Shown here in pieces: positions 1,685-41,572 of a stretch of 64,000 bases of DNA. The stretch's first letter is position 1. Every line of letters begins with the position of its first letter. The stretch is from a virus. The position numbers and the translations under genes were made by a program. Under the pieces are notes generated by a model that was given only the letters and a program-made list of their open reading frames with translations, was not told the DNA's origin and searched no databases. Location: positions 20,401 to 84,400 of IMG/VR virus record IMGVR_UViG_3300042691_015935, one strand, 5' to 3'.

Positions 1685-3834
1685 GCAATATTTAATACCT
1701 GATCAATAACTTTTAAATTCTTTTTAAGTGAGTAGTTAGGAAAATGTGTTTTAATATCAAAAATTGTATCGAATACTGAAATTGTATCGTATATGTTTTT
1801 ATATAGTCTGGATTTATTATATTCACCTTTAAAGTCTTCAACTAGACACAGAGTGTCGTCTTCTTTGTAGAAAACAAAAAACCTATCGCCTTCCACATAG
1901 TTTGATTCTTTAATAGCGTCTAATACTTTGGTCTCGTTTGTTCTTTCAGATTCCATCATAGTACTTGATAATGTTTTTCTTGCTGCCCATCTTTTGATAT
2001 CTGTAACATTAGAAGCTTCTTTAATATAATTAATATATAGTTGTTTAAGTTCTTCGAATGGACCACCGTAAAGTATGTGTTTTATAATAATTTTAATCAT
2101 TTCTTTTAGGGCAGAACATTTAGTTGAAGCTTTTAATGCTGAACCTTTAACTGTTATTTTATCACCTTCACGATAAGCATAATTTTTTGCTTTTACAACC
2201 ATAATCGAATCATATACTGAATCTAATTCAAACTTAATTTCTTTAGGTAATAACTCATTAATTTCAGTAATTAGTTTATCTATTTCTTGTTTATTAAATT
2301 CTTGTCCATTTTTCCATATAGTTATAGAATCTGTGTCTACTTTAGGAACACTAAATCCTTTTGATTCTGCCCAATTAATGGAATATGTTAGTATTTCTCG
2401 TCCACGTCTGGTTACTTCTGCTGCACCCGCTGGGAAGTTAAAATTTAGTCCTTGTGCACCCATGAATCCATACAGAGAATTTATCAGAATTTTCTGGCTG
2501 GTATCTAGGTGTTTATATAAATTATTGCCTGTCTCTTTTGCTAATTTTTTATTCTTTAATCTTTCAGCCCTTAAATATTCCAATAGTTTGAGCATGTGAC
2601 AATTAGGGTCTTTTTCTTTACTATATATTTGATATTCAAGCATCACAGATGGATATAGTGAAGCAATATCGAAAGACACAGCGTTTTGATACACACCAGG
2701 ATTTCCGTATGAGATTGCTCCTTCGTATTCGACAGGACCATCTTCTTTAGGAATACTATGTTTGTTTTGTAAATAACTTCTAACCATTAGCGAATTTAAT
2801 TGACTACCGCTGGCACTTTCAACAATTAATTGAAAAGTTTTAGGAATCATTTGAGTCATATAAAAGAAAGGGGCAGACATTAAATCATATAATGCTAAAG
2901 AATCGTCACTGTCGTCTTCACAATATACTTTTATTTTTTCCCATTCTTCAGGAATTAAATAATTATGTCTTATTTGACTAGCATCATAATGTACTCTTTT
3001 TTCTTTCTCTAGACCTTCGACTTTAATAATAGATTTTAACGCATATGACTCATATTTTTTAGTTGCAGTATCATATCTGTAAGCTAAAAACATTGTATCA
3101 ATTAGGTCTCTTCCATGTATTTTACATTTATTGTAATGTAAATCTCTACTACCATCTACTCTGAATTTAGATTCACGTTTAGCTCTAGTCATCGCTGAAC
3201 CGTCTCTACCTAGATTAAGTTCATATCCGTGTCTTTCTGAACAGAATAACATATACGGTAAGTCATATCCAAAGATATTGTGACCAATTATTATTGCTGG
3301 GTCCATTGAACAAACCCAAGAACACCAATCTGCAACCATTTCACCACAATTATTATAATCAGTGTAACTGAACAATTTTTTAATTACAATTCCGTTTTTT
3401 CTGAATGTATTAGAAATTAATAATACTTTCGAGTCGTGATTGTGTTCCAACCCTGTGCCTTCTATATCGAAGCTTAACATAGGTAATTCAGTGTTTGTTA
3501 GACCTTTGTAATACGTTAATCCGTCTTTCAACATAAACGCTTCTTGGTCATTATAAACACTATATATATCTTCGTTACGATATTTAATTCTTGCTTCTTC
3601 TAACTCTGATTTATTTTTAAATTGTTTTCCAAACTTATAATGTAAATCACCATCTAATCTAACAAAGTCATTTCCTATCTTCCTATCACTAAGAAGCCAG
3701 AAACGATTAGACATATACTGTAAATGAGTTTTGAAGTTCTCGTCTACAGTATACACTAACGCTTTATCATTTTGAATTTCAATTGAAACAATTCTTTCTA
3801 GAGAATTCTTTCCATAGATTAATGACTGTGACAT
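1681..3834 (-). CDS. Family B DNA polymerase with 3'-5' exonuclease
   Basis: At 717 residues it is a compact family B replicative polymerase. Visible motifs in order: Exo I SFDIEGTGL (about 121), Exo II GHNIFGYDLPYM (about 184), Exo III YCEDDSDDS (about 305), motif A SFDIASLYPSVM (about 388), motif B KILINSLYGFMG (about 455), motif C VDTDSI (about 505) and the KAKNYAY motif. All catalytic acidic residues are present, so it should be active and proofreading. Its start overlaps the stop of a 39-codon gene as TAATG, which suggests translational coupling. It is shorter than T4 gp43 (898 residues). Confidence 0.95.
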   Translation of the reverse strand: MSQSLIYGKNSLERIVSIEIQNDKALVYTVDENFKTHLQYMSNRFWLLSDRKIGNDFVRLDGDLHYKFGKQFKNKSELEEARIKYRNEDIYSVYNDQEAFMLKDGLTYYKGLTNTELPMLSFDIEGTGLEHNHDSKVLLISNTFRKNGIVIKKLFSYTDYNNCGEMVADWCSWVCSMDPAIIIGHNIFGYDLPYMLFCSERHGYELNLGRDGSAMTRAKRESKFRVDGSRDLHYNKCKIHGRDLIDTMFLAYRYDTATKKYESYALKSIIKVEGLEKEKRVHYDASQIRHNYLIPEEWEKIKVYCEDDSDDSLALYDLMSAPFFYMTQMIPKTFQLIVESASGSQLNSLMVRSYLQNKHSIPKEDGPVEYEGAISYGNPGVYQNAVSFDIASLYPSVMLEYQIYSKEKDPNCHMLKLLEYLRAERLKNKKLAKETGNNLYKHLDTSQKILINSLYGFMGAQGLNFNFPAGAAEVTRRGREILTYSINWAESKGFSVPKVDTDSITIWKNGQEFNKQEIDKLITEINELLPKEIKFELDSVYDSIMVVKAKNYAYREGDKITVKGSALKASTKCSALKEMIKIIIKHILYGGPFEELKQLYINYIKEASNVTDIKRWAARKTLSSTMMESERTNETKVLDAIKESNYVEGDRFFVFYKEDDTLCLVEDFKGEYNKSRLYKNIYDTISVFDTIFDIKTHFPNYSLKKNLKVIDQVLNIA

Positions 3835-4008: not shown

Positions 4009-5964
4009 TTAGTCCCATCCTGAATCATTGTCTTTGTTTTCTTTTTTGAGCTTTAATAATTCTTTTAATTCTTGTCTTTCAACATCTTCAAGTTCACTAA
4101 TTTCTCCTGTTTTACCTTTCCACCCGAACTCTAGTCTATCTAATTCACCTAGATCATTCTTTAAAATATTCATTACCATATACTTATCTAACTCTTTAGT
4201 TGATGGAGTATAAAATGGTCTAGATAAACTTATAATACCTCTGAATGATTGATACAAGAATGAACTACCTTTAATTGATGTATAGCTCGTTATCTCTGTG
4301 TCTGGTCCACTTCCCAAGCTAAATTTATTAGGTTGACAAAGAACAATAGCTGCGACATCTAAATCATTCACTAAGTCTTGAATTTCATTTGCTATTTTCT
4401 TAGAAGCAGCAGTATCGTCTGATACGTCAGTATTTACTCTCTCGAAGTAGTCTAACATAACAAATCGGACTTTCTCGCCCGTTGTTTGTTCAACCTCTTG
4501 AATATAATTTCGGATACTAGCAATAGTAGCTGAGCTTCTGTCGTAAAACCAAACGTTTCCATATCGTTCTCTGATCAAGTTCATTAATTCTTTTTGTCTA
4601 GGATTGTTTGTTTTGAAAATGTGGTATACTTCTTCTCTAGGTAATCCTGTTACTTTGTATAATAGCTTTTCAAATAACCTATTTCTGTGCATATCTAACG
4701 ATGCAAACACACTAGTTATACCTTGTTTAGACGTATTCTCTAGTATATTCAAGGCGAGTGCAGTTTTTCCCGCACCAGGGGCAGCTACAATACCGACATT
4801 AGAACCAACCGTAATAGGCATTGTTCTATCTAAGCTTTTAATACCTGTTTTGATTGTATTCTTTTCTATGTTTTGAACAAACGAAACGAATTGTGATTCA
4901 ATTTCACTAATTTTCATTGGTTCAACATCTAAATCAATCTTATTCTTAACACCCATACTAGAAGCATATATTGCTAACCAATTAGTAGGGTCTTTGGTTG
5001 TGAATTGTCCACCTTTCCATGTTTCAGAAAACACTTGACTAATGATTAAATCGATTTCAGAATCAGGAAATTCTTCTTCTCCTGTTCTTTTAGATTGGAT
5101 TTCAGCAACACCAGTTAGTAGATTTTTTACATGTTCTTCTGCGTATCCGACATTTCGATATGTAGCAGCTAGGCATAACATAGCGTGATTTCTTTGACCT
5201 GTTTTAAAGAAACCATTAGCTAATAACCATCTAGCTTCATCTAGATATTTAGGTTTTGTTTTCATGTCGATAGTTGTGTGATCAAAACTATACTCAGCTT
5301 CTGTTTCTTTCTTCTTTTCAGGTACTTTAATATTTTTCATATCATCTGGTAAGTCGACTTGTGTACTTTCAACTTGAATGTTTCTTTGATTTTTAGCTAG
5401 TTCAGTTATCTGAGTGATTGGTAGTTCATCTAACTCATATAAATGAAGTGGAATCTTGTATAATCCAGATTTCTGATGTTTAGTGTTCGGTAAACGAATA
5501 ATTCTATTAGGGTCGTTCACCACCTTATCAAACGTTTTCAAGTCCCCTGCAACATCAAACACAATAGCTTTAAATGTTGACGGAGTAATACTATCATTCA
5601 ACTGTACTTCCAAAGAGAATCCCTTGTTTCCAGTGAAGTGAGCTACAATAGATTGCTCTGGAATACCTCTATCAATCAATCTATGTGCTGTAACAATAGC
5701 ATCTTGTCGAGCAAGTTCTAAACTATCTTTACTATCAAAGTCGAAGTATAATATATTGGTTACAGTATCTTCAATCCCTGAAACAGTTCCAGTAGTAGAT
5801 ACTATTTTTTTATGATTTTGATTATATAAAAACAAACTACGATACCAATCTTTAGATTTATCTTTGATTAAATTCTGATACTCATTAGCTGCGACTAGAT
5901 TAGCTTTACTAGTTAATCCCTCACGGAGATTTACAAACTTCATTTCTTCCTCCAAATTATTCAT
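4009..5964 (-). CDS. Primase-helicase: AEP-like primase fused to DnaB/RecA-type helicase
   Basis: A 651-residue fusion. The N-terminal part has archaeo-eukaryotic-primase features: an acidic FDFD motif near residue 75, FTGNKGFSLEV near 110, and DPNRIIRLPNTKH followed by GLYKIPL near 150-175. The C-terminal part has Walker A APGAGKTA (about 395), Walker B FVMLDY (about 498) and a CQPNK sensor-like motif, as in replicative helicases. It should open the fork and prime DNA synthesis. It ends in an acidic, tryptophan-containing tail (DNDSGWD) resembling that of the annealing-type protein at 6751. Primase chemistry is inferred from motifs. Confidence 0.88.
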   Translation of the reverse strand: MNNLEEEMKFVNLREGLTSKANLVAANEYQNLIKDKSKDWYRSLFLYNQNHKKIVSTTGTVSGIEDTVTNILYFDFDSKDSLELARQDAIVTAHRLIDRGIPEQSIVAHFTGNKGFSLEVQLNDSITPSTFKAIVFDVAGDLKTFDKVVNDPNRIIRLPNTKHQKSGLYKIPLHLYELDELPITQITELAKNQRNIQVESTQVDLPDDMKNIKVPEKKKETEAEYSFDHTTIDMKTKPKYLDEARWLLANGFFKTGQRNHAMLCLAATYRNVGYAEEHVKNLLTGVAEIQSKRTGEEEFPDSEIDLIISQVFSETWKGGQFTTKDPTNWLAIYASSMGVKNKIDLDVEPMKISEIESQFVSFVQNIEKNTIKTGIKSLDRTMPITVGSNVGIVAAPGAGKTALALNILENTSKQGITSVFASLDMHRNRLFEKLLYKVTGLPREEVYHIFKTNNPRQKELMNLIRERYGNVWFYDRSSATIASIRNYIQEVEQTTGEKVRFVMLDYFERVNTDVSDDTAASKKIANEIQDLVNDLDVAAIVLCQPNKFSLGSGPDTEITSYTSIKGSSFLYQSFRGIISLSRPFYTPSTKELDKYMVMNILKNDLGELDRLEFGWKGKTGEISELEDVERQELKELLKLKKENKDNDSGWD

Positions 5965-6750: not shown

Positions 6751-7257
6751 TTATTGCCAACCATCATCATTTGTTTGTGTTTCTTTAGCTGGCGTAGCTG
6801 GTGGAGATTTACTTGGTTTAGAAAACCCAGAAGGTTTAGGTTGGGCTTCTTGTTGAGGAGGTTTACTAGCTTGTGTATCAGCTAGGGGTGAGTCTACGAT
6901 TCTTTCACCCTCATCCAAATCAGCTAAAGCAAATGCTGTTCCATAATTACAAAGAGCTAAACATCTACCAATTGAACCTGTTTCAGCTTTCTCTGTGTGA
7001 TCTGAAAAATCTTTCTTTGTTTCACGCTTTGTTGCTGAAACTTGTTTGATAATATTACCGTCTTTATCTTTGATTTTGATTGTACTTTTTGCTACAGTTT
7101 GATCTTCTGTTAATAGCAAGAACTCAGTACTGATTTCAAAATTATCTACTTCCTCGTTGAACCACACTAGACGATGTGCAACAAGCATGTAGCTTTTACC
7201 TTTAAGATTAACAAGAGGTAGGTCTGTCCCTTTCTTTGTTTTTACAATCTTACTCAT
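6751..7257 (-). CDS. Putative ssDNA-annealing or ssDNA-binding protein (Erf/Rad52-like)
   Basis: 168 residues. A core of about 120 residues contains the stretch EKAETGSIGRCLALCNYGT, typical of phage single-strand annealing proteins of the Erf/Sak group. It is followed by a Pro/Lys/Ser-rich linker and an acidic tail NDDGWQ, an organisation like SSB tails that recruit partners. It stands upstream of the primase-helicase, which ends in the similar DNDSGWD. A role in recombination or coating ssDNA at forks is likely; which of the two is uncertain. Confidence 0.55.
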   Translation of the reverse strand: MSKIVKTKKGTDLPLVNLKGKSYMLVAHRLVWFNEEVDNFEISTEFLLLTEDQTVAKSTIKIKDKDGNIIKQVSATKRETKKDFSDHTEKAETGSIGRCLALCNYGTAFALADLDEGERIVDSPLADTQASKPPQQEAQPKPSGFSKPSKSPPATPAKETQTNDDGWQ

Positions 7258-7268
7258 ATCTCTCCTTA

Positions 7269-7505
7269 TTAAAATAACCCTTCACGAATTACTGACATTT
7301 TAAATCTTTCAACGGCTACCTGCTTTTCAACATCTTCACCTAAAACTTCTGGTACACCAGCTATACCTGCGTCAATACTAAACGGAACTTTAATAGTTTT
7401 AAAAACGCCGTTATGTTTCACTAAACCAATAGCAACATTACTAAGTTCTGTTAGTTGTTCTGATTCTTGTTCTGTTTCAATTGTTTGTTCTTTCTTTTTT
7501 GACAT
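7269..7505 (-). CDS. Small protein at head of the replication operon, unknown
   Basis: 78 residues, acidic N-terminus then a compact domain (VAIGLVKHNGVFKTIKVPF). First gene after the promoter at 7526-7554, with an AAAGGACG site. Not recognised. Confidence 0.6.
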   Translation of the reverse strand: MSKKKEQTIETEQESEQLTELSNVAIGLVKHNGVFKTIKVPFSIDAGIAGVPEVLGEDVEKQVAVERFKMSVIREGLF

Positions 7506-7561: not shown

Positions 7562-7726
7562 TTACATTAAAAAATATGCTATTAAAAATACCCACCCAGC
7601 TAAAGTATATGGTCTTCCTTCTGATTGTTGTTCTTTTGATTTAGGGAAAATACCACCTTGTTTAATCATTGCTATAATAAAGAAAACTAAAGCGGTTGCA
7701 TTTAGTAACATTTTGTAATTAGTCAT
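7562..7726 (-). CDS. Small membrane protein, 54 residues
   Basis: The ORF starts in TAATG overlap with the upstream nucleotidyltransferase stop and has a GAGGAGAT site. It has two hydrophobic segments (LLNATALVFFIIAMI and AGWVFLIAYFLM) around a polar loop, so it is a likely two-span membrane protein. Function unknown. Confidence 0.6.
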   Translation of the reverse strand: MTNYKMLLNATALVFFIIAMIKQGGIFPKSKEQQSEGRPYTLAGWVFLIAYFLM

Positions 7727-8709
7727 TATATCTCCTCTTTAATAACTTTTCTATATATATCTAAAATAATATGGTTTATTTCTATACTATCTGGTAAATT
7801 TGAATGTTGTTTAATTTCAAGTAGTTCTTTTAATCCTTTTTCTATTTCAGGTTGAACTATTGTTGTGAAATCTAATTCTCCTTTTTTAACCAATAATATA
7901 AAGTCTCTTTGTTCTTTTTCTAACGGAAAAGCTAAAGAACCTGTTGTCAATAATACCTTTCCTTGGTGTATAACACGTAAGGCATGACTGACAGCTTTCC
8001 AATCTACGCCTTGGTTCATTTTAGCTAATTTACTTCTTGTACCAAATTCATCGTACGCTTTTTGTAAAGAATTGATAACGTAATCAATCGTTGAAAACAT
8101 TGGATACTTTTTACCAATAACTTCAAAATGTTCGTCATATCCTTCATTTAAATCATTTTTAACTTTAGGAACTTGAACAATATGAACATATTCTAATTTA
8201 GTTAGTTCTAATAATTGATTTCTAAAATTAAATAACTTATTAGAATAAGGATAAGTTTCTTTATAATTCTTTAAAGTTTCAAGTACCTTCTCTACTGAAC
8301 CCATTCTAGTCCCACGAATACCGTATTTAGCTGCTTGTTGTTTAGCATATCCAATAAAACTAACTACATTCTTATGTACTAATTCATTTCTTTTTGAAAC
8401 AATCTCATCCCATAGTGGGTGTTTCTCTAGAATAAATTCATCGGGAGTAAACAATAATTCGATTGCTACTGTTTGTCCTTCTTTTAGCATGTTCATAAAC
8501 TTATCTAATGAAAATAATTCAGTGTCTATATCAGAGCTGTTATTTTTATTATTTGAATTATTAGTACTTTGATTAATACTTTTATTAAATTTACCTAGTA
8601 ATATGTCGTCAGCAGATGGTAAGTACACGCCTTTATAATCTTTGTCTGATTTCTCGGTATTTAGTCCAAATAAATGTGACCCAGCTATAGCTTTCATTAT
8701 TATTTTCAT
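7726..8709 (-). CDS. RlaP-like nucleotidyltransferase (DNA polymerase beta superfamily)
   Basis: 327 residues. The N-terminus shows the nucleotidyltransferase signature GSHLFGLNTEKSDKD at 10-24, with the GS and DxD pieces of the catalytic site. This matches predicted nucleotidyltransferases of the RlaP type (RNA ligase-associated polymerase-beta-like), found with RNA ligases in RNA-repair contexts. Downstream helices fit the family. The same arm of this genome encodes an RNA ligase, polynucleotide kinase-phosphatase and macro domain, so a role in adding nucleotides to damaged RNA is plausible but inferred. Confidence 0.75.
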   Translation of the reverse strand: MKIIMKAIAGSHLFGLNTEKSDKDYKGVYLPSADDILLGKFNKSINQSTNNSNNKNNSSDIDTELFSLDKFMNMLKEGQTVAIELLFTPDEFILEKHPLWDEIVSKRNELVHKNVVSFIGYAKQQAAKYGIRGTRMGSVEKVLETLKNYKETYPYSNKLFNFRNQLLELTKLEYVHIVQVPKVKNDLNEGYDEHFEVIGKKYPMFSTIDYVINSLQKAYDEFGTRSKLAKMNQGVDWKAVSHALRVIHQGKVLLTTGSLAFPLEKEQRDFILLVKKGELDFTTIVQPEIEKGLKELLEIKQHSNLPDSIEINHIILDIYRKVIKEEI

Positions 8710-13912: not shown

Positions 13913-15124
13913 TTAATGAAAGTCTGAGTTATCTTTATCTAAGTATGCTTCTGAAATCCATTTTAATGACTTCCTGTTGTTTGGACAGAACTTATCATTG
14001 TATGATTCAATAGATTTAATAACTACACCTTCTCTGATTTTTTGTTCTGGACAATATACTGAATCACCTTTAGTTAATTCATATACTTTTTCTTTATTAA
14101 AAGGACCTTCGTATAATACTGGAACAACATCAAATCCTCTTTCTTCTGCATACTGACGAACTTCTTTAGGACTTAACCATACGTGTTCACTGTTATCTAA
14201 TGTTTTTTTAACATCAAATAAAACAAAATGATGTCTGTCTTTAAATCCATAATCGTAATTCTTTTGGATTCCTTGACCAATTAGCTCACCATAAATAGTT
14301 TCACCTTCTTTAATCTTATCTTTAGCCTTAACACCTTTTAAAACATTACCATATACATCTTCACCATAGAAACCAGAGTATCCGACTCTGTTAGTAAGTT
14401 CTACGTTATTAGACCCATAACAGAACTCGTATTTAGGTAATAGACCTAGCTTTCCAGAAACGATTCTTTTTAGCATATTTAAGCTCGAAAGAAGAATGGT
14501 CTTAGTATCTCCTTTCCTTGTTTTAAGTTGATTTAAGCACCCAAAGAATTCGTTTAAAGACGGAATTACTGTTGGTAACATAGATGCTCTACAGTTACTT
14601 CCATGCAATTTTTCCTCAACTACAACTAACTCTCCTTCAGTGAATAGGTTTGGAAACCATTTTACGTTTTCTAGTCCGTTATATTTATGAAATAATGGGT
14701 TCTCTAGTGGTTTGTTTCTAGATGTTTTAAGTCTAGGAGTAAACTCAGGAGCAGGTGGTTCGTATTTAATAATACCTAACGATTCAGATAAATCATCCTC
14801 TAGTGAAAACTTAGATACATCAGTAAATTCTGATATTTCTTCTTTAGATATCAGCATACCCTGAGAAGCAAATCCTCTAATACGAATTTGTCTAACTCTT
14901 GAATTATGTAGCTTGATCTTACTTCCTTCTGGAAATAATTTAGATTCTAAGTTATTAGGTAATACTGAATCAATTGGAACGTAGATAATCTCATCTCCCA
15001 CAACGTATTTGTTTTTTGGAATTACCACATGAAATCCATATACGATTGCAATTTCTAATCGTTCAGCGTTTGAGTGAGGATATATCTCTAATATTTGAGT
15101 CAGTGGTGTTTTAAATAATGACAT
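13913..15124 (-). CDS. RNA ligase, Rnl5/DraRnl-like
   Basis: 403 residues. An N-terminal region of about 120 residues looks like an OB fold (ILEIYPHSNAERLEIAIVYG...), followed by a nucleotidyltransferase domain with motif I EEKLHGSN (nucleophile Lys172), motif III-like YGELIG, motif IV EGVVIKS and motif V KSLKWIS. This matches the Deinococcus-type RNA ligase, which seals 3'-OH/5'-phosphate RNA. Together with the kinase-phosphatase and macro domain genes upstream it would form a complete RNA healing and sealing set. Its mRNA has an unusual structured leader (15144-15231). Confidence 0.85.
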   Translation of the reverse strand: MSLFKTPLTQILEIYPHSNAERLEIAIVYGFHVVIPKNKYVVGDEIIYVPIDSVLPNNLESKLFPEGSKIKLHNSRVRQIRIRGFASQGMLISKEEISEFTDVSKFSLEDDLSESLGIIKYEPPAPEFTPRLKTSRNKPLENPLFHKYNGLENVKWFPNLFTEGELVVVEEKLHGSNCRASMLPTVIPSLNEFFGCLNQLKTRKGDTKTILLSSLNMLKRIVSGKLGLLPKYEFCYGSNNVELTNRVGYSGFYGEDVYGNVLKGVKAKDKIKEGETIYGELIGQGIQKNYDYGFKDRHHFVLFDVKKTLDNSEHVWLSPKEVRQYAEERGFDVVPVLYEGPFNKEKVYELTKGDSVYCPEQKIREGVVIKSIESYNDKFCPNNRKSLKWISEAYLDKDNSDFH

Positions 15125-15269: not shown

Positions 15270-15731
15270 CTATTTCACGTAAATTAAAATTTCACTATCA
15301 CCTGTTACTTTATTGATTATTTCTTCAATCTTAGTCCAATCTCCTCCACCTAATCCACTGCCAATTTTAGGCATAGCTACAATCTTACCTTTATCCAAGT
15401 ACTTTCTTTTAATTTCATTCATACATTGTTCAATAGCATCATAGTCGATATATTGTTTTCCATCATATCCGTATTTATCCTGTGTGAAACAGTTTAGTAT
15501 TGTTAGTTTATCGGAAACTTTAACAGGTTGAACCATGCCTAGTAATAAGCCTGTTCCAAAGTTCAACAATTTGTAATGTTCACATAATCCGTGATAGTTT
15601 TCCTTCACAACGGGGTATTTTTCTAACATTGTTTTAGCTACACCTGAGCCAAACTTACTCTGACAGTTTACACCATGAGCGATTACTCCCTCTGTTACAT
15701 CAAATAAATCACCTTGTACGTATTTAATCAT
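15270..15731 (-). CDS. Macro domain protein (ADP-ribose binding/processing)
   Basis: 153 residues, a single macro domain: GDLFDVTEGVIAHGVNCQ at the N-terminus, FGSGVAKTMLEKYP, and MPKIGSGLGGGDW near residue 120, the ribose-binding loop. Such proteins hydrolyse ADP-ribose-1''-phosphate or remove ADP-ribose from acceptors. It overlaps the kinase-phosphatase gene by one base, placing it in an RNA-repair context, where it could process ADP-ribose-1''-phosphate. Alternatively it reverses ADP-ribosylation by host defence. Confidence 0.88.
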   Translation of the reverse strand: MIKYVQGDLFDVTEGVIAHGVNCQSKFGSGVAKTMLEKYPVVKENYHGLCEHYKLLNFGTGLLLGMVQPVKVSDKLTILNCFTQDKYGYDGKQYIDYDAIEQCMNEIKRKYLDKGKIVAMPKIGSGLGGGDWTKIEEIINKVTGDSEILIYVK

Positions 15732-16600
15732 TAGAAATCTCCTTTGGCTACTTGTAGTACTTTCAATCCTTTACTTCTTAACATGTCTACTACCTGTTGT
15801 CTATCATCTAGAGCAAAGAATATATTATACTTAGGTAGTATTTCGTATTCTAATAAAACTTCTTTAGTGATATTGTCTTGTCTAAAGTCTCCACTGTATC
15901 GCATAAATAATTCATCATAAGGTATATCATGTTTGTTTAACCATTCTTCTGTTTGTTTTCTGTAATCGTCTGGACGACCTGAACACAATACTATTTTCAT
16001 TCCTGTTTCTTTGTATGTTCTAAGTATATGAATTATTTCCATTATAGGTTTATCTTCTGGCATTGTACTAAAGAATAGTTTCCAATCTTTCTTTCCTTCT
16101 CCACGAACAAAGTTTAATCTATGGCTTAAATCCGCGATAGTACCATCAATATCGCAATATATTGCTTGTTCTTTATCTTTAAGTAATCCCTTTTCAGTAA
16201 TGATTATGTCAGCTTCTTCTGAACTAATAGGTTGAAACTTAGACAGGAAAGTATCAAGTGCAGACCTTGCTTCTTTATAACAGGTAATAGTTGGGTGATT
16301 TGTTCTTTGTTCCATTCTTCTTAGACATTCTTTTGTTTGAACAATAAAAGAAAAGATAGCTGTTTCATAACCGTGTTCCTTTGCAACAGAAAGGTATCTA
16401 TTTCGTTGTTCTTTACTAAAGTTCATACGATCTACAACAATCTTCTGTCCTGCTTCTATTGCGTCTTTAAACGCTTTTAAATGCCCATCTTTACCTTGAT
16501 CGTCTTGAGATATACGAACATATCCTGTTAACTCCAACTTAGAAGCAAATGTTGACTTACCAGAACCAGGAGGACCAACTAATACAATACAATGTTTCAT
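15731..16600 (-). CDS. Polynucleotide 5'-kinase/3'-phosphatase (T4 Pnkp-like)
   Basis: 289 residues in the T4 PseT order: N-terminal kinase with P-loop GPPGSGKST (9-17) and catalytic-type DRMNFS near 57, then a HAD phosphatase with CDIDGTIADLSHR (Asp150, Asp152) and LCSGRPDDYR. It would remove 3'-phosphate or 2',3'-cyclic phosphate and phosphorylate 5'-OH RNA ends, making them fit for RNA ligase. It is directly upstream of the macro domain and RNA ligase genes. Host anticodon nucleases and the phage's own hammerheads both create such ends. Confidence 0.92.
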   Translation of the reverse strand: MKHCIVLVGPPGSGKSTFASKLELTGYVRISQDDQGKDGHLKAFKDAIEAGQKIVVDRMNFSKEQRNRYLSVAKEHGYETAIFSFIVQTKECLRRMEQRTNHPTITCYKEARSALDTFLSKFQPISSEEADIIITEKGLLKDKEQAIYCDIDGTIADLSHRLNFVRGEGKKDWKLFFSTMPEDKPIMEIIHILRTYKETGMKIVLCSGRPDDYRKQTEEWLNKHDIPYDELFMRYSGDFRQDNITKEVLLEYEILPKYNIFFALDDRQQVVDMLRSKGLKVLQVAKGDF

Positions 16601-39079: not shown

Positions 39080-39394
39080 TTACACCTCCTGTTTACAGTC
39101 GGGACATACCCATATCATGAAGTTAGTTAACACTTTGTTATGATATTTTCTTGGGTGTGTACAGGTTGTTTGTTGTACTTGAGGGACGGACGTTGGTTCT
39201 TTAAACAGTTCATATAACTTATCAATTGTTTCAAGAAAAAATAAAAATTTTTCACCTACTTGTTTTGTTTTACTATTGTAGTGAATTCTCTGAACTTTAT
39301 ATATATTATTAACTTCTATAATTTCATAGATTGAATTATATAATTTGTTTTTATGAATAATTATATCCCCAACTTTAAACTTTGGCGTTGTCAT
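39080..39394 (-). CDS. SH3-like KxGD protein with C-terminal zinc ribbon
   Basis: 104 residues: MTTPKFKVGDIIIHKNK SH3-like part, then a Pro/Gln linker and CTHPRKYH ... WVCPDCKQEV, a one-ribbon zinc site. It is the longest cytoplasmic member of the family and lies just downstream of the type II hammerhead ribozyme, whose 3' product starts its mRNA. Confidence 0.62.
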   Translation of the reverse strand: MTTPKFKVGDIIIHKNKLYNSIYEIIEVNNIYKVQRIHYNSKTKQVGEKFLFFLETIDKLYELFKEPTSVPQVQQTTCTHPRKYHNKVLTNFMIWVCPDCKQEV

Positions 39395-39407: not shown

Positions 39408-39470
39408 GGACTCGTCAGGTTACACATAATGTAACGACGACCGACTAATTCTAGTCAGGTCGTTTCGTCC
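39408..39470 (-). ncRNA. Hammerhead ribozyme, type II (HHR-C)
   Basis: All core elements on the minus strand: GAAA (39466-39463), stem III 39462-39458 and 39456-39452 with 39438-39442 and 39443-39447 (one bulge), cleavage triplet GTC ending at 39436, stem I GTTACA/TGTAAC (39435-39430 with 39424-39419), CTGACGA (39418-39412) and stem II GTCC/GGAC (39411-39408 with 39470-39467), left open. Cleavage falls between 39436 and 39435. The next gene's AGGAGG starts 3 nt after stem II. Confidence 0.85.
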
Positions 39471-39545
39471 TTAATTATATTTAGATACCACTAGATGTAC
39501 TAAAGGTAAACAAATAAACACTACCCCTAATAATAAATCCTCCAC
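39471..39545 (-). CDS. Possible membrane microprotein, 24 residues
   Basis: GTG start with AGGA 5 nt upstream, hydrophobic (LLLGVVFICLPLVHLVV), stop directly abutting HHR-C. Too short for certainty. Confidence 0.35.
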   Translation of the reverse strand: MEDLLLGVVFICLPLVHLVVSKYN

Positions 39546-39547
39546 TA

Positions 39548-39871
39548 TTATCCTACCTTCTTATCCATATCTTGTGGATTAAATGCTTTGATTTCTTTTC
39601 TTGATAACTTATCATTGTTATCTTGAACGAATTGTTGGATTGTTGCTAGGTTCTCAATAAACTTTTCAAATTGTTGAACATACATATTGATTGGAAACCT
39701 ACCACCTAACCCATAGATAGTTAATCCACCACCTTTGTTAATCTCAACCCTTACAGTGTTACCCACTAGGTTGTTAAGAATCTTTAATTGTTCTTGTTGC
39801 TTCTTTAACTGCTCGATAAGAGCTTGTTTTTCTTCAAGTAATTGTTTCGCTGTTTTTGTTGCAGTTGTCAT
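39548..39871 (-). CDS. Coiled-coil protein, 107 residues
   Basis: N-terminal coiled coil (LLEEKQALIEQLKKQQEQLKI within 10-32), then a beta segment NTVRVEINKGGGLTIYGLGG and a helical end. AAAGGAG before the ATG. It is the gene between HHR-B and HHR-C, so its mRNA would be excised with 5'-OH and cyclic phosphate ends. Not recognised. Confidence 0.58.
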   Translation of the reverse strand: MTTATKTAKQLLEEKQALIEQLKKQQEQLKILNNLVGNTVRVEINKGGGLTIYGLGGRFPINMYVQQFEKFIENLATIQQFVQDNNDKLSRKEIKAFNPQDMDKKVG

Positions 39872-39913
39872 AATAGTTCTCCTTTGTAGCGTAATGCTAC
39901 GTTGTTAATTAGT

Positions 39914-39973
39914 TAAGCTGTTTCGGTGTGACATTACACCTCGTCAGTCAGACTTATAGCCTGAGACAGCTTA
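39914..39973 (-). ncRNA. Hammerhead ribozyme, type III (HHR-B)
   Basis: Minus strand: stem III TAAGCTGT/ACAGCTTA, 8 bp (39973-39966 with 39921-39914); cleavage after C39965 (GTC); stem I TCAGGC/GTCTGA (39964-39959 with 39953-39948); CTGACGA (39947-39941); stem II GGTGT/ACACC (39940-39936 with 39929-39925); GAAA (39924-39921). Every invariant core position is present. It lies in the leader of the gene at 39871. Confidence 0.9.
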
Positions 39974-40254
39974 GGGAATAGTGTTTGCGATCACTACTCC
40001 CACTACTGTATGTTATCAGCTCGACGTTATCCTCCCATAGGTACATTAATCCTATGGTTCTTATATCGAACCGACTAGCTAGACTCTTCACTGTTTTACA
40101 GCTTATACCATATAGGTAGTCTAGATGCAAAGACGTTGCTTCTCGGTAATGTAGTTCTCGCTACAAAACTCCACAACACCCAACGGGTTATGTCTAATAA
40201 CAGTTACTAGCCGTCTAGCCAAGTGTTAAGGTACACCTGCCCTTTTCTAGTAAC
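39974..40254 (-). ncRNA. Hairpin-rich non-coding RNA between two hammerheads
   Basis: No gene fits this 281-nt stretch, but it contains at least eight inverted repeats: 40203-40210/40247-40254 (8 bp), 40178-40181/40185-40188, 40150-40154/40161-40165, 40127-40130/40136-40139, 40079-40085/40118-40124, 40035-40041/40051-40057 (7 bp), 40056-40060/40068-40072 and 39974-39983/39992-40001. The last abuts stem III of HHR-B. It would be the 3' part of the RNA released by HHR-A and HHR-B. Function unknown. Confidence 0.6.
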
Positions 40255-40266
40255 CTATAGTTTATA

Positions 40267-40551
40267 CTAGATAAAACTTATGCCATTTTCTACCTTTACA
40301 AGGTTAACGCTTTGCTTCGTTAAGAGCTTTTTTAAGCGTTTAATTTCAGACATAAGTCTATCTTTAGAGGATTTTCCTTTGACAAAAAATCCACGTTGAA
40401 ACAAGTTTATATCGTTCGGGCAGTTGGTTATAACATACCCCGAATGAAACACTTTTTTAGTTGCGTTTACAGCTTGACGCTTCAACGCTTGTTGTTTATA
40501 ACCTGTATTAGCTCTTTTACAAGCCAACGCAGTTTTACTTAATGTTCTCAT
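40267..40551 (-). CDS. Basic protein, 94 residues
   Basis: Strongly basic (MRTLSKTALACKRANTGYK, KKLLTKQSVNLVK) with a central YVITNCPNDIN segment. The AGGAG ribosome site (40567-40563) lies inside stem III of HHR-A and would be freed by cleavage. Likely RNA- or DNA-binding by charge; not recognised. Confidence 0.58.
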   Translation of the reverse strand: MRTLSKTALACKRANTGYKQQALKRQAVNATKKVFHSGYVITNCPNDINLFQRGFFVKGKSSKDRLMSEIKRLKKLLTKQSVNLVKVENGISFI

Positions 40552-40562
40552 AAGACGTTATA

Positions 40563-40623
40563 CTCCTATTTCGGGTGACAACACCCATCATCAGTAGGGA
40601 CTCAATTATCCCTAGATAGGGAG
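40563..40623 (-). ncRNA. Hammerhead ribozyme, type III (HHR-A)
   Basis: Minus strand: stem III CCTAT/ATAGG (40620-40616 with 40569-40565); cleavage after C40615; stem I TAGGGA/TCCCTA (40614-40609 with 40600-40595); CTGATGA (40594-40588); stem II GGGTG/CACCC with TTGT loop (40586-40582 with 40577-40573); GAAA (40572-40569). The next gene's ribosome site is part of stem III. A separate GCGAGT/ACTCGC hairpin (40623-40628/40634-40639) lies just upstream. Confidence 0.88.
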
Positions 40624-40685
40624 CGAGTGGTTAACTCGCCCAAAGATTCATGGCTAGGATAAATACTAGAGAGAGTTTTATAATA

Positions 40686-40868: not shown

Positions 40869-41572
40869 GTGATTCTCCTAGTTTAAGTATATATTTAATT
40901 ATATATACAAGAATTTAATTTTAATCTCGACTTGTCAGGTCGATGCCGAGCTATCATTCAAGCCCCATGCCAACTCATTTTCTGAACAAAATCAAGCACT
41001 TAGCTGTGGTTCACAATGACACCAGTATCGAAAAGTCACCAAAAACAGAGCCAAAATGCCACCAAAGCCAGTATCAAAACAACACCATCTCAACAAATTC
41101 AAGCACTTAGAGCTAAGTACCTGAAATCTCGTAGCATGGTATAATAAGAACCCGTGCGTGTGTATTAATACCCGTATGCGTGTGCATATGCCCCTGCGTG
41201 TGTTTTTATATACCTGCGTGAGCGTACGTGCGAGCGTGTGCGTGCATGGGTGTGCAGGTGCGTGTAGGCGTGAGCGTGTGTGTGCATGATGCGTAGGCGT
41301 GTGTGCGAGCGTGTGCGTGCGTATGTGTGCTAGGGGGGGGGTACACCCTTCGTGGTTCAGGGTGACATTGACCGAGTACATTCACTCACTTTACCCTCTC
41401 AACTATAGAAACCAGTAACCCTTCACCCTACTACTCATTCACAACCTTTATAACAACTCTTAGTATAATAGCCTCTAAAACGAACAAAAACAGGGTTATT
41501 TGATACTTTAGTATATAGACCTAATAGTTAGTATTAAAGCTTCTAAAACCTCTTTAAAAGGATATTAAGCTT
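40869..41572. other. Divergent non-coding region, candidate origin/control region
   Basis: About 700 bp separate the leftward and rightward arms. Contents: an AT-rich segment (40880-40925) where leftward promoters are likely; repeated words at 40985-41120 (TCAAGCACTTAG twice, CCAGTATC twice, ACTTAGAGCTAAGT palindrome); a GT/GC alternating tract to 41341; and an AT-rich segment with TATAAT at 41464-41469 facing the rightward genes. The only ORF (40992-41381) is low-complexity and not credible. Confidence 0.6.
41153..41341. repeat. GT/GC alternating purine-pyrimidine tract ending in G9
   Basis: About 190 bp of irregular GTGCGTGTG-type repeats in an otherwise AT-rich genome, with G confined to the plus strand and C to the minus, ending in nine Gs (41333-41341). 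Alternating purine-pyrimidine favours Z-DNA; strand asymmetry favours R-loop or unwinding structures. Likely part of an origin or replication/transcription switch. Confidence 0.8.

Follow-up and report, generated by a model that had tools for sequence, protein, structure and literature searches.

Tandem and triple hammerhead ribozymes in prophages were described by Perreault et al. in 2011 (PMC3088659), the triple set being located around the ardA gene of A. tumefaciens. Cleavage by the triple ardA hammerheads was observed in E. coli as well as in vitro, and the processing of long phage transcripts was proposed as a role for prophage hammerheads (PMC3088659). A review published in 2017 (PMC6155905) noted that hammerheads flank small ORFs and are persistently linked to phages, and called their biological role an open question. 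The locus described here lies in a window of 64,000 nt, which is the whole stretch of DNA analyzed and belongs to the 84.4-kb IMG/VR record IMGVR_UViG_3300042691_015935. Like the clustered prophage hammerheads, the locus includes at least two hammerheads on the same strand, with single genes or short blocks of genes between them. The original prediction that no phage operon with this layout had been described was overstated, since the triple ardA arrangement had already been reported (PMC3088659).

Three hammerhead motifs were found on the minus strand of the window, namely the type III motifs HH1 (40563..40622; predicted cut after 40615, triplet AUC) and HH2 (39914..39973; predicted cut after 39965, triplet GUC) and the type II motif HH3 (39408..39470; predicted cut after 39436, triplet GUC). 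The descriptor used in the search demanded the core, GAAA, an NUH triplet and three helices, and the scores of the motifs were 16, 19.5 and 18, respectively. In each motif the core CUGANGA, the GAAA and the NUH triplet are intact and three helices are present; C3-UGANGA-9, G12-A-A, A15.1-U16.1 and the NUH triplet were identified in all of them. Note that one additional U is inserted in HH1 after A9, ahead of stem II, and that the sequences of HH1 and HH2 differ. The same search in 60 shuffled windows gave two hits, neither of which scored above 15, and no further motif with a score of at least 12 was found in the other 20.4 kb of the record. The predicted cuts are spaced 650 nt (HH1–HH2) and 529 nt (HH2–HH3) apart. 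Thus, the three motifs, their types and positions, the lengths of the fragments and the structured tail of one of them had been predicted correctly. The operon had also been called early; this designation was not borne out, because promoter-like sites were no more frequent than in shuffled sequence.

Folding of the motifs showed that the minimum-energy fold of HH2 is the hammerhead fold and that the hammerhead fold of HH3 scores better than the unconstrained fold returned. As for HH1, a conserved inactive fold, in which the AUC triplet pairs with GAU of the core, beats the hammerhead fold by 1.6 kcal/mol. The check with Rfam covariance models that had been suggested gave a mixed outcome: HH1, HH2 and HH3 were not matched even at E ≤ 10, but the copies in two relatives (L038 and L115) matched Hammerhead_II above the curated threshold.

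A close relative, IMGVR_UViG_3300042691_014730 (84.9 kb; contigs L001 and L006), was compared with the window; its TerL and DNA ligase are 89% and 62% identical to those of the window phage. Three hammerheads were found in L006 in the same order, III–III–II, beside the same genes. Base pairs changed on both sides were counted in HH1 (2 of 16, in stem II), HH2 (10 of 18) and HH3 (3 of 16), and none was broken in any motif. The core of HH2 is fixed, with its stems largely rewritten between the two phages. The conserved cores and stems on which the original prediction depended are therefore found in this relative. The evidence of covariation is limited to this comparison and to independent models; pair counts over all 23 descriptor-found hammerheads are partly circular, as detection itself required pairing. 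The covariance models R1 and R2 were trained solely on other relatives, without the window or L006, and were used to search 0.98 Mb. HH2 was recovered by R1 (E = 1e-7) and HH3 by R2 (E = 1.3e-12); HH1 of the window was missed by R1 at E ≤ 1, and its L006 copy gave E = 0.25. A match of R1 in L066 (E = 0.004) was dropped, since it falls in what looks like coding sequence and lacks the surroundings expected of a hammerhead. Judged by sequence, HH1, HH2 and HH3 are real, conserved hammerheads.

To describe the lineage, 80 contigs were gathered with a TerL profile and L115 was added via the ORF107 family (see below). The descriptor and Rfam together revealed 24 hammerheads, which are distributed over 15 distinct contigs that mostly belong to a single terminase lineage. 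Those anchored by TerL are all located on the strand antisense to TerL, at a distance of 3.4–8.5 kb. No hammerhead was found in twenty relatives having at least 7 kb of sequence upstream of TerL, so the function would be dispensable there or done otherwise. A hammerhead pattern search in distant records returned coding-like matches only, which were rejected. The type II hammerhead of L064 (3089-3166, minus strand; core CUGAGGA) contains a GAGGAG run that could serve as the Shine–Dalgarno sequence (SD) of the next gene. In L125, a phage contig in which no hammerhead was found, a Twister-P5 ribozyme (4087-4145; 55 bits, above the Rfam threshold) is located in the same operon, past the ORF107-family gene and in the gap separating two further genes. 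In L048 (~4090-4135, minus strand) and L122 (~3324-3358, plus strand), the non-coding stretch that precedes the ORF107-family gene ends in a hairpin resembling an intrinsic terminator instead of a hammerhead. The hairpin of L048 and the Twister-P5 ribozyme of L125 suggest that selection acts on having a defined cut or end. A TerL homologue of the lineage (34%) was found in L102 (LNDT01000004.1, Bdellovibrionales MAG), possibly in a prophage, and the closest named phage match was from Silvanigrella (27% identity). These two matches are suggestive only, and the hosts of the lineage may belong to Bdellovibrionota.

The first gene considered, ORF94 (40267..40551, minus strand), encodes a basic protein of 94 aa with 73% identity to its L006 counterpart. 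It belongs to a conserved family located just upstream of the structured RNA, and homologues were found in L025, L028, L029, L033, L038 and L040. ORF107 (39548..39871, minus strand) was recognized as a conserved small protein through alignments and a family search; its family gene lies between two hammerheads in the window, L006, L064 and L115. Before the SD of ORF107, a small hairpin (39885-39901, minus strand; GTAGC/GCTAC) shows a compensatory change in L006 (GTGAC/GTCAC). In addition to its main gene, the second fragment (529 nt) holds a membrane-like micro-ORF of 24 codons with a GTG start (39471..39545, minus strand), which ends on the base directly preceding HH3 and has an equivalent of 23 codons in L006. 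HH3 is followed in the ORF list by ORF104 (39080..39394, minus strand), whose SD AGGAGG is located just after the ribozyme. Elsewhere in the window, a CA/CG-rich low-complexity stretch (41160-41380; cacacgctcacgc...) separates two divergent gene blocks, and a similar stretch is found in the same place in L006 (about 7250-7440).

ORF94 is followed by a structured non-coding RNA (39974..40266, minus strand), which folds far better than shuffled sequence, with fold z-scores of -3.3 (282 nt) and -5.3 (290 nt) for slightly different limits. In the comparison of the window with L006, 18 of the 60 consensus pairs were compensatory. The 3' end of this RNA is closed by a 10-bp hairpin (39974..40001, minus strand; z = -4.2), which directly abuts HH2 (gap 0) and is retained in L006 through compensatory changes. 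No match to the region was found in Rfam 15 at E ≤ 10, nor did the counterpart RNAs of the relatives match Rfam 15 at the gathering threshold. In L025, L029 and L038, the order of elements is an ORF94-family gene, a type II hammerhead, a structured non-coding RNA of 226–305 nt and a type III hammerhead; a third of the pairs of the bracketed RNA (18 of 54) are compensatory between L025 and L029. The 5' half of this arrangement is visible at the contig end of L040, and in L064 and L115 a non-coding stretch before the ORF107-family gene ends in a type II hammerhead. The homology of the RNA across the lineage is based on position, flanking genes and foldedness, as nucleotide profiles of the tail gave matches within close pairs only and divergence in the alignments A14 and A15 precluded their use in scans. 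With this basis, the tail in the window is probably the conserved RNA of the lineage. The structured tail of about 280 nt described in the original prediction is real; what had been missed is that it is a conserved RNA and probably the one bracketed by hammerheads in relatives.

The ends that cleavage would create also differ between the two types. As read from the sequence, a type II cut leaves stem III on the upstream fragment, and a type III cut leaves that fragment without a ribozyme hairpin. A separate hairpin directly precedes all eight type III motifs (gap of at most 2 nt, z from -1.7 to -6.9). Most type II motifs have no such abutting upstream hairpin. At HH1, a 7-bp hairpin (40621..40641, minus strand; z = -2.5) abuts stem III and, once HH1 had cleaved, would terminate the upstream RNA at its 3' side; in L006 it is retained with a different sequence.

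These characteristics allow us to assume that HH1, HH2 and HH3 are active cis-cleaving ribozymes, which would process a leftward polycistronic transcript during or soon after its transcription. The job common to the lineage would be to set the ends of the structured RNA of ~230–300 nt (longer in some relatives) located after the ORF94-family gene, with transcription running on into the next genes as the ends are cut. HH1 would cut ahead of ORF94 and HH2 immediately past the 3' hairpin of the tail RNA, and the unit released in the window, 650 nt long, would comprise ORF94 together with the RNA. In L025, L029 and L038, the pair of type II and type III ribozymes would free the RNA alone. Each cut would generate a 2',3'-cyclic phosphate and a 5'-OH, and the downstream product, bearing the 5'-OH, would begin directly with the stem I hairpin. 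A 3' hairpin would be retained on the upstream product, namely stem III itself after a type II cut and the separate abutting hairpin after a type III cut. Such hairpin ends may be protective, and would be expected to make the units decay more slowly and independently of one another. We consider it reasonably probable that the ribozymes cut one transcript in this way, set the ends of the structured RNA or free it, and provide hairpin ends; the RNA would presumably have a function. Several observations limit this proposal: the twenty relatives mentioned above show no hammerhead, HH1 has a more stable inactive fold and an extra U in its core, sequence similarity of the RNA is confined to close pairs, the unit in the window and L006 includes ORF94, which is against release of the RNA alone, and HH3 is away from the RNA and fits only the part of the proposal concerning mRNA processing. 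The predicted division of the operon into separate RNA units, with each ribozyme before a different gene, is supported at the sequence level, and the layout is conserved in relatives.

A simpler explanation is plain segmentation of mRNA, in which the hammerheads uncouple the decay and expression of neighboring genes and the structured RNA is merely a stabilizer in a 3'-UTR. The hammerhead-flanked ORF107-family genes of four phages are in line with it, as is the proposal of Perreault et al. (PMC3088659), but it leaves unexplained both the covarying RNA of 226–305 nt that is bracketed without a gene in L025, L029 and L038 and the recurrence of the RNA with a terminator in L048. As the whole account it appears rather unlikely. 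Translation switching had also been offered in the original prediction, and here the position of the SD is relevant. The UAGGAG of ORF94 (40563..40568, minus strand) has its UAGG within the 3' strand of HH1 stem III, and an SD or SD-like purine run was found in this strand in five of the eight type III motifs (HH1 of the window and of L006, L025, L029 and L033), 3–11 nt before the start codon. Because the SD lies inside stem III, cleavage could unmask it: HH1 cleavage would shed the strand pairing with the SD and could switch ORF94 on. The hammerheads might then mainly govern ribosome access, with timing perhaps set by a ligand, a protein or the speed of transcription. Artificial bacterial hammerhead riboswitches, which act by sequestering the SD (PMC5052635), and the conserved inactive fold of HH1, which engages the cleavage triplet, are consistent with such a switch. 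Against it, the SD is outside the ribozyme in HH2, HH3, L038 and most type II motifs, and nearest-neighbor folding, the energies of which leave out the tertiary contacts of hammerheads, predicted a clear rise in SD accessibility from the uncut to the cut form in L029 only (0.21 to 0.55); elsewhere it hardly changed, and most of the pairing of the SD persists in HH1 of the window (0.17 to 0.21). Since the change is small outside L029, the switch is kept as a hypothesis: the SD inside HH1 stem III preserves it as an option, the folding calculations are ambiguous, and as the main role of the hammerheads it seems unlikely.

Joining of the cleaved RNA was a further suggestion, namely re-ligation or circularization by the kinase-phosphatase and ligase of the phage. 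RtcB-like or kinase-ligase repair would join the units into a circular RNA of ORF94 and the tail, similar to a retrozyme. The 650-nt unit is indeed bounded by two type III hammerheads, and the RNA-repair set of the window includes Pnkp (kinase-phosphatase, 15731-16600), an RNA ligase with a PHA02142 domain (13913-15124), a macro domain protein (15270-15731) and RlaP (7726-8709), all on the minus strand; the L006 genome also encodes a ligase and PNKP. However, no RNA ligase, PNKP phosphatase domain or RtcB was detectable in L025 (95.6 kb) and L038 (84.6 kb), both with the type II and type III pair, and the ligase and PNKP are present in L043, which is without hammerheads. The repair genes do not track the hammerheads in this comparison, which is limited by fragmentary records, and circularization or re-ligation was rejected as the conserved role. 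Neither hammerhead-carrying repeats nor a co-conserved ligase system of the retrozyme kind was found, and Perreault et al. sought spliced or circular products and detected none (PMC3088659). We therefore regard circular or re-ligated products as very improbable. That the motifs are inactive or incidental, for example relics of a mobile element, could be argued from the marginal fold of HH1 and from activity being a prediction; the compensatory changes, syntenic conservation and constant orientation of the motifs make this extremely improbable. The processing of one transcript with defined RNA ends is preferred. An extended form of it is put forward tentatively, as possible: a tailed-phage lineage, perhaps infecting Bdellovibrionota, would carry structured RNAs of a new class, the ends of which are cut by pairs of self-cleaving ribozymes embedded in the operon; in several members, the ribozyme on the 3' side would also act as a natural ribosome-binding site activated by cleavage.

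A comparison with known systems indicated that the clustered prophage hammerheads of A. tumefaciens (ardA), C. scindens and A. caulinodans (PMC3088659) are similar in their mixed types, flanked single genes and location in phage operons. However, the flanked genes vary there, whereas the locus described here is conserved through a phage lineage; in addition, the hammerheads here bracket a structured non-coding RNA, and the type III motifs abut hairpins and often have the SD in stem III. The HHphage motif of the haloviruses HF1 and HF2 (PMC3088659) is likewise a variant of the hammerhead, placed directly before a start codon within an early-gene phage operon, and the 5' end of the transcript suggests that it is cleaved, but it is a single motif before a helicase gene with no bracketed RNA. 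Theta (HDV-like) ribozymes near phage tRNAs (Kienbeck et al. 2024, PMC10879173) were also suggested to generate the 3' terminus of a non-coding phage RNA, although they belong to a different class of ribozyme and the RNA in question is a tRNA. In synthetic SD-masking hammerhead and twister riboswitches (PMC5052635), the SD is in a ribozyme stem and is exposed by cleavage; those are engineered and ligand-driven, while the motifs here are natural, with a putative effect and no ligand known. Plant retrozymes (PMC4918200) share a unit of several hundred nt bounded by two type III hammerheads, but the phage locus has no long terminal repeats and is no retroelement, and its unit carries a conserved phage gene. 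In the open literature, to which the search was confined, no report was found in which hammerheads bracket a conserved phage RNA or in which a natural hammerhead has the SD in stem III. The lineage offers a conserved setting with natural variants, including type II and type III motifs, one to three motifs per locus, and a terminator or twister instead of a hammerhead. It makes a specific hammerhead role directly testable, namely the formation of phage RNA ends and possibly the exposure of a ribosome-binding site. Thus, phage operons that cut themselves were already known; what seems novel is the use of hammerheads to define where a conserved phage RNA begins and ends.
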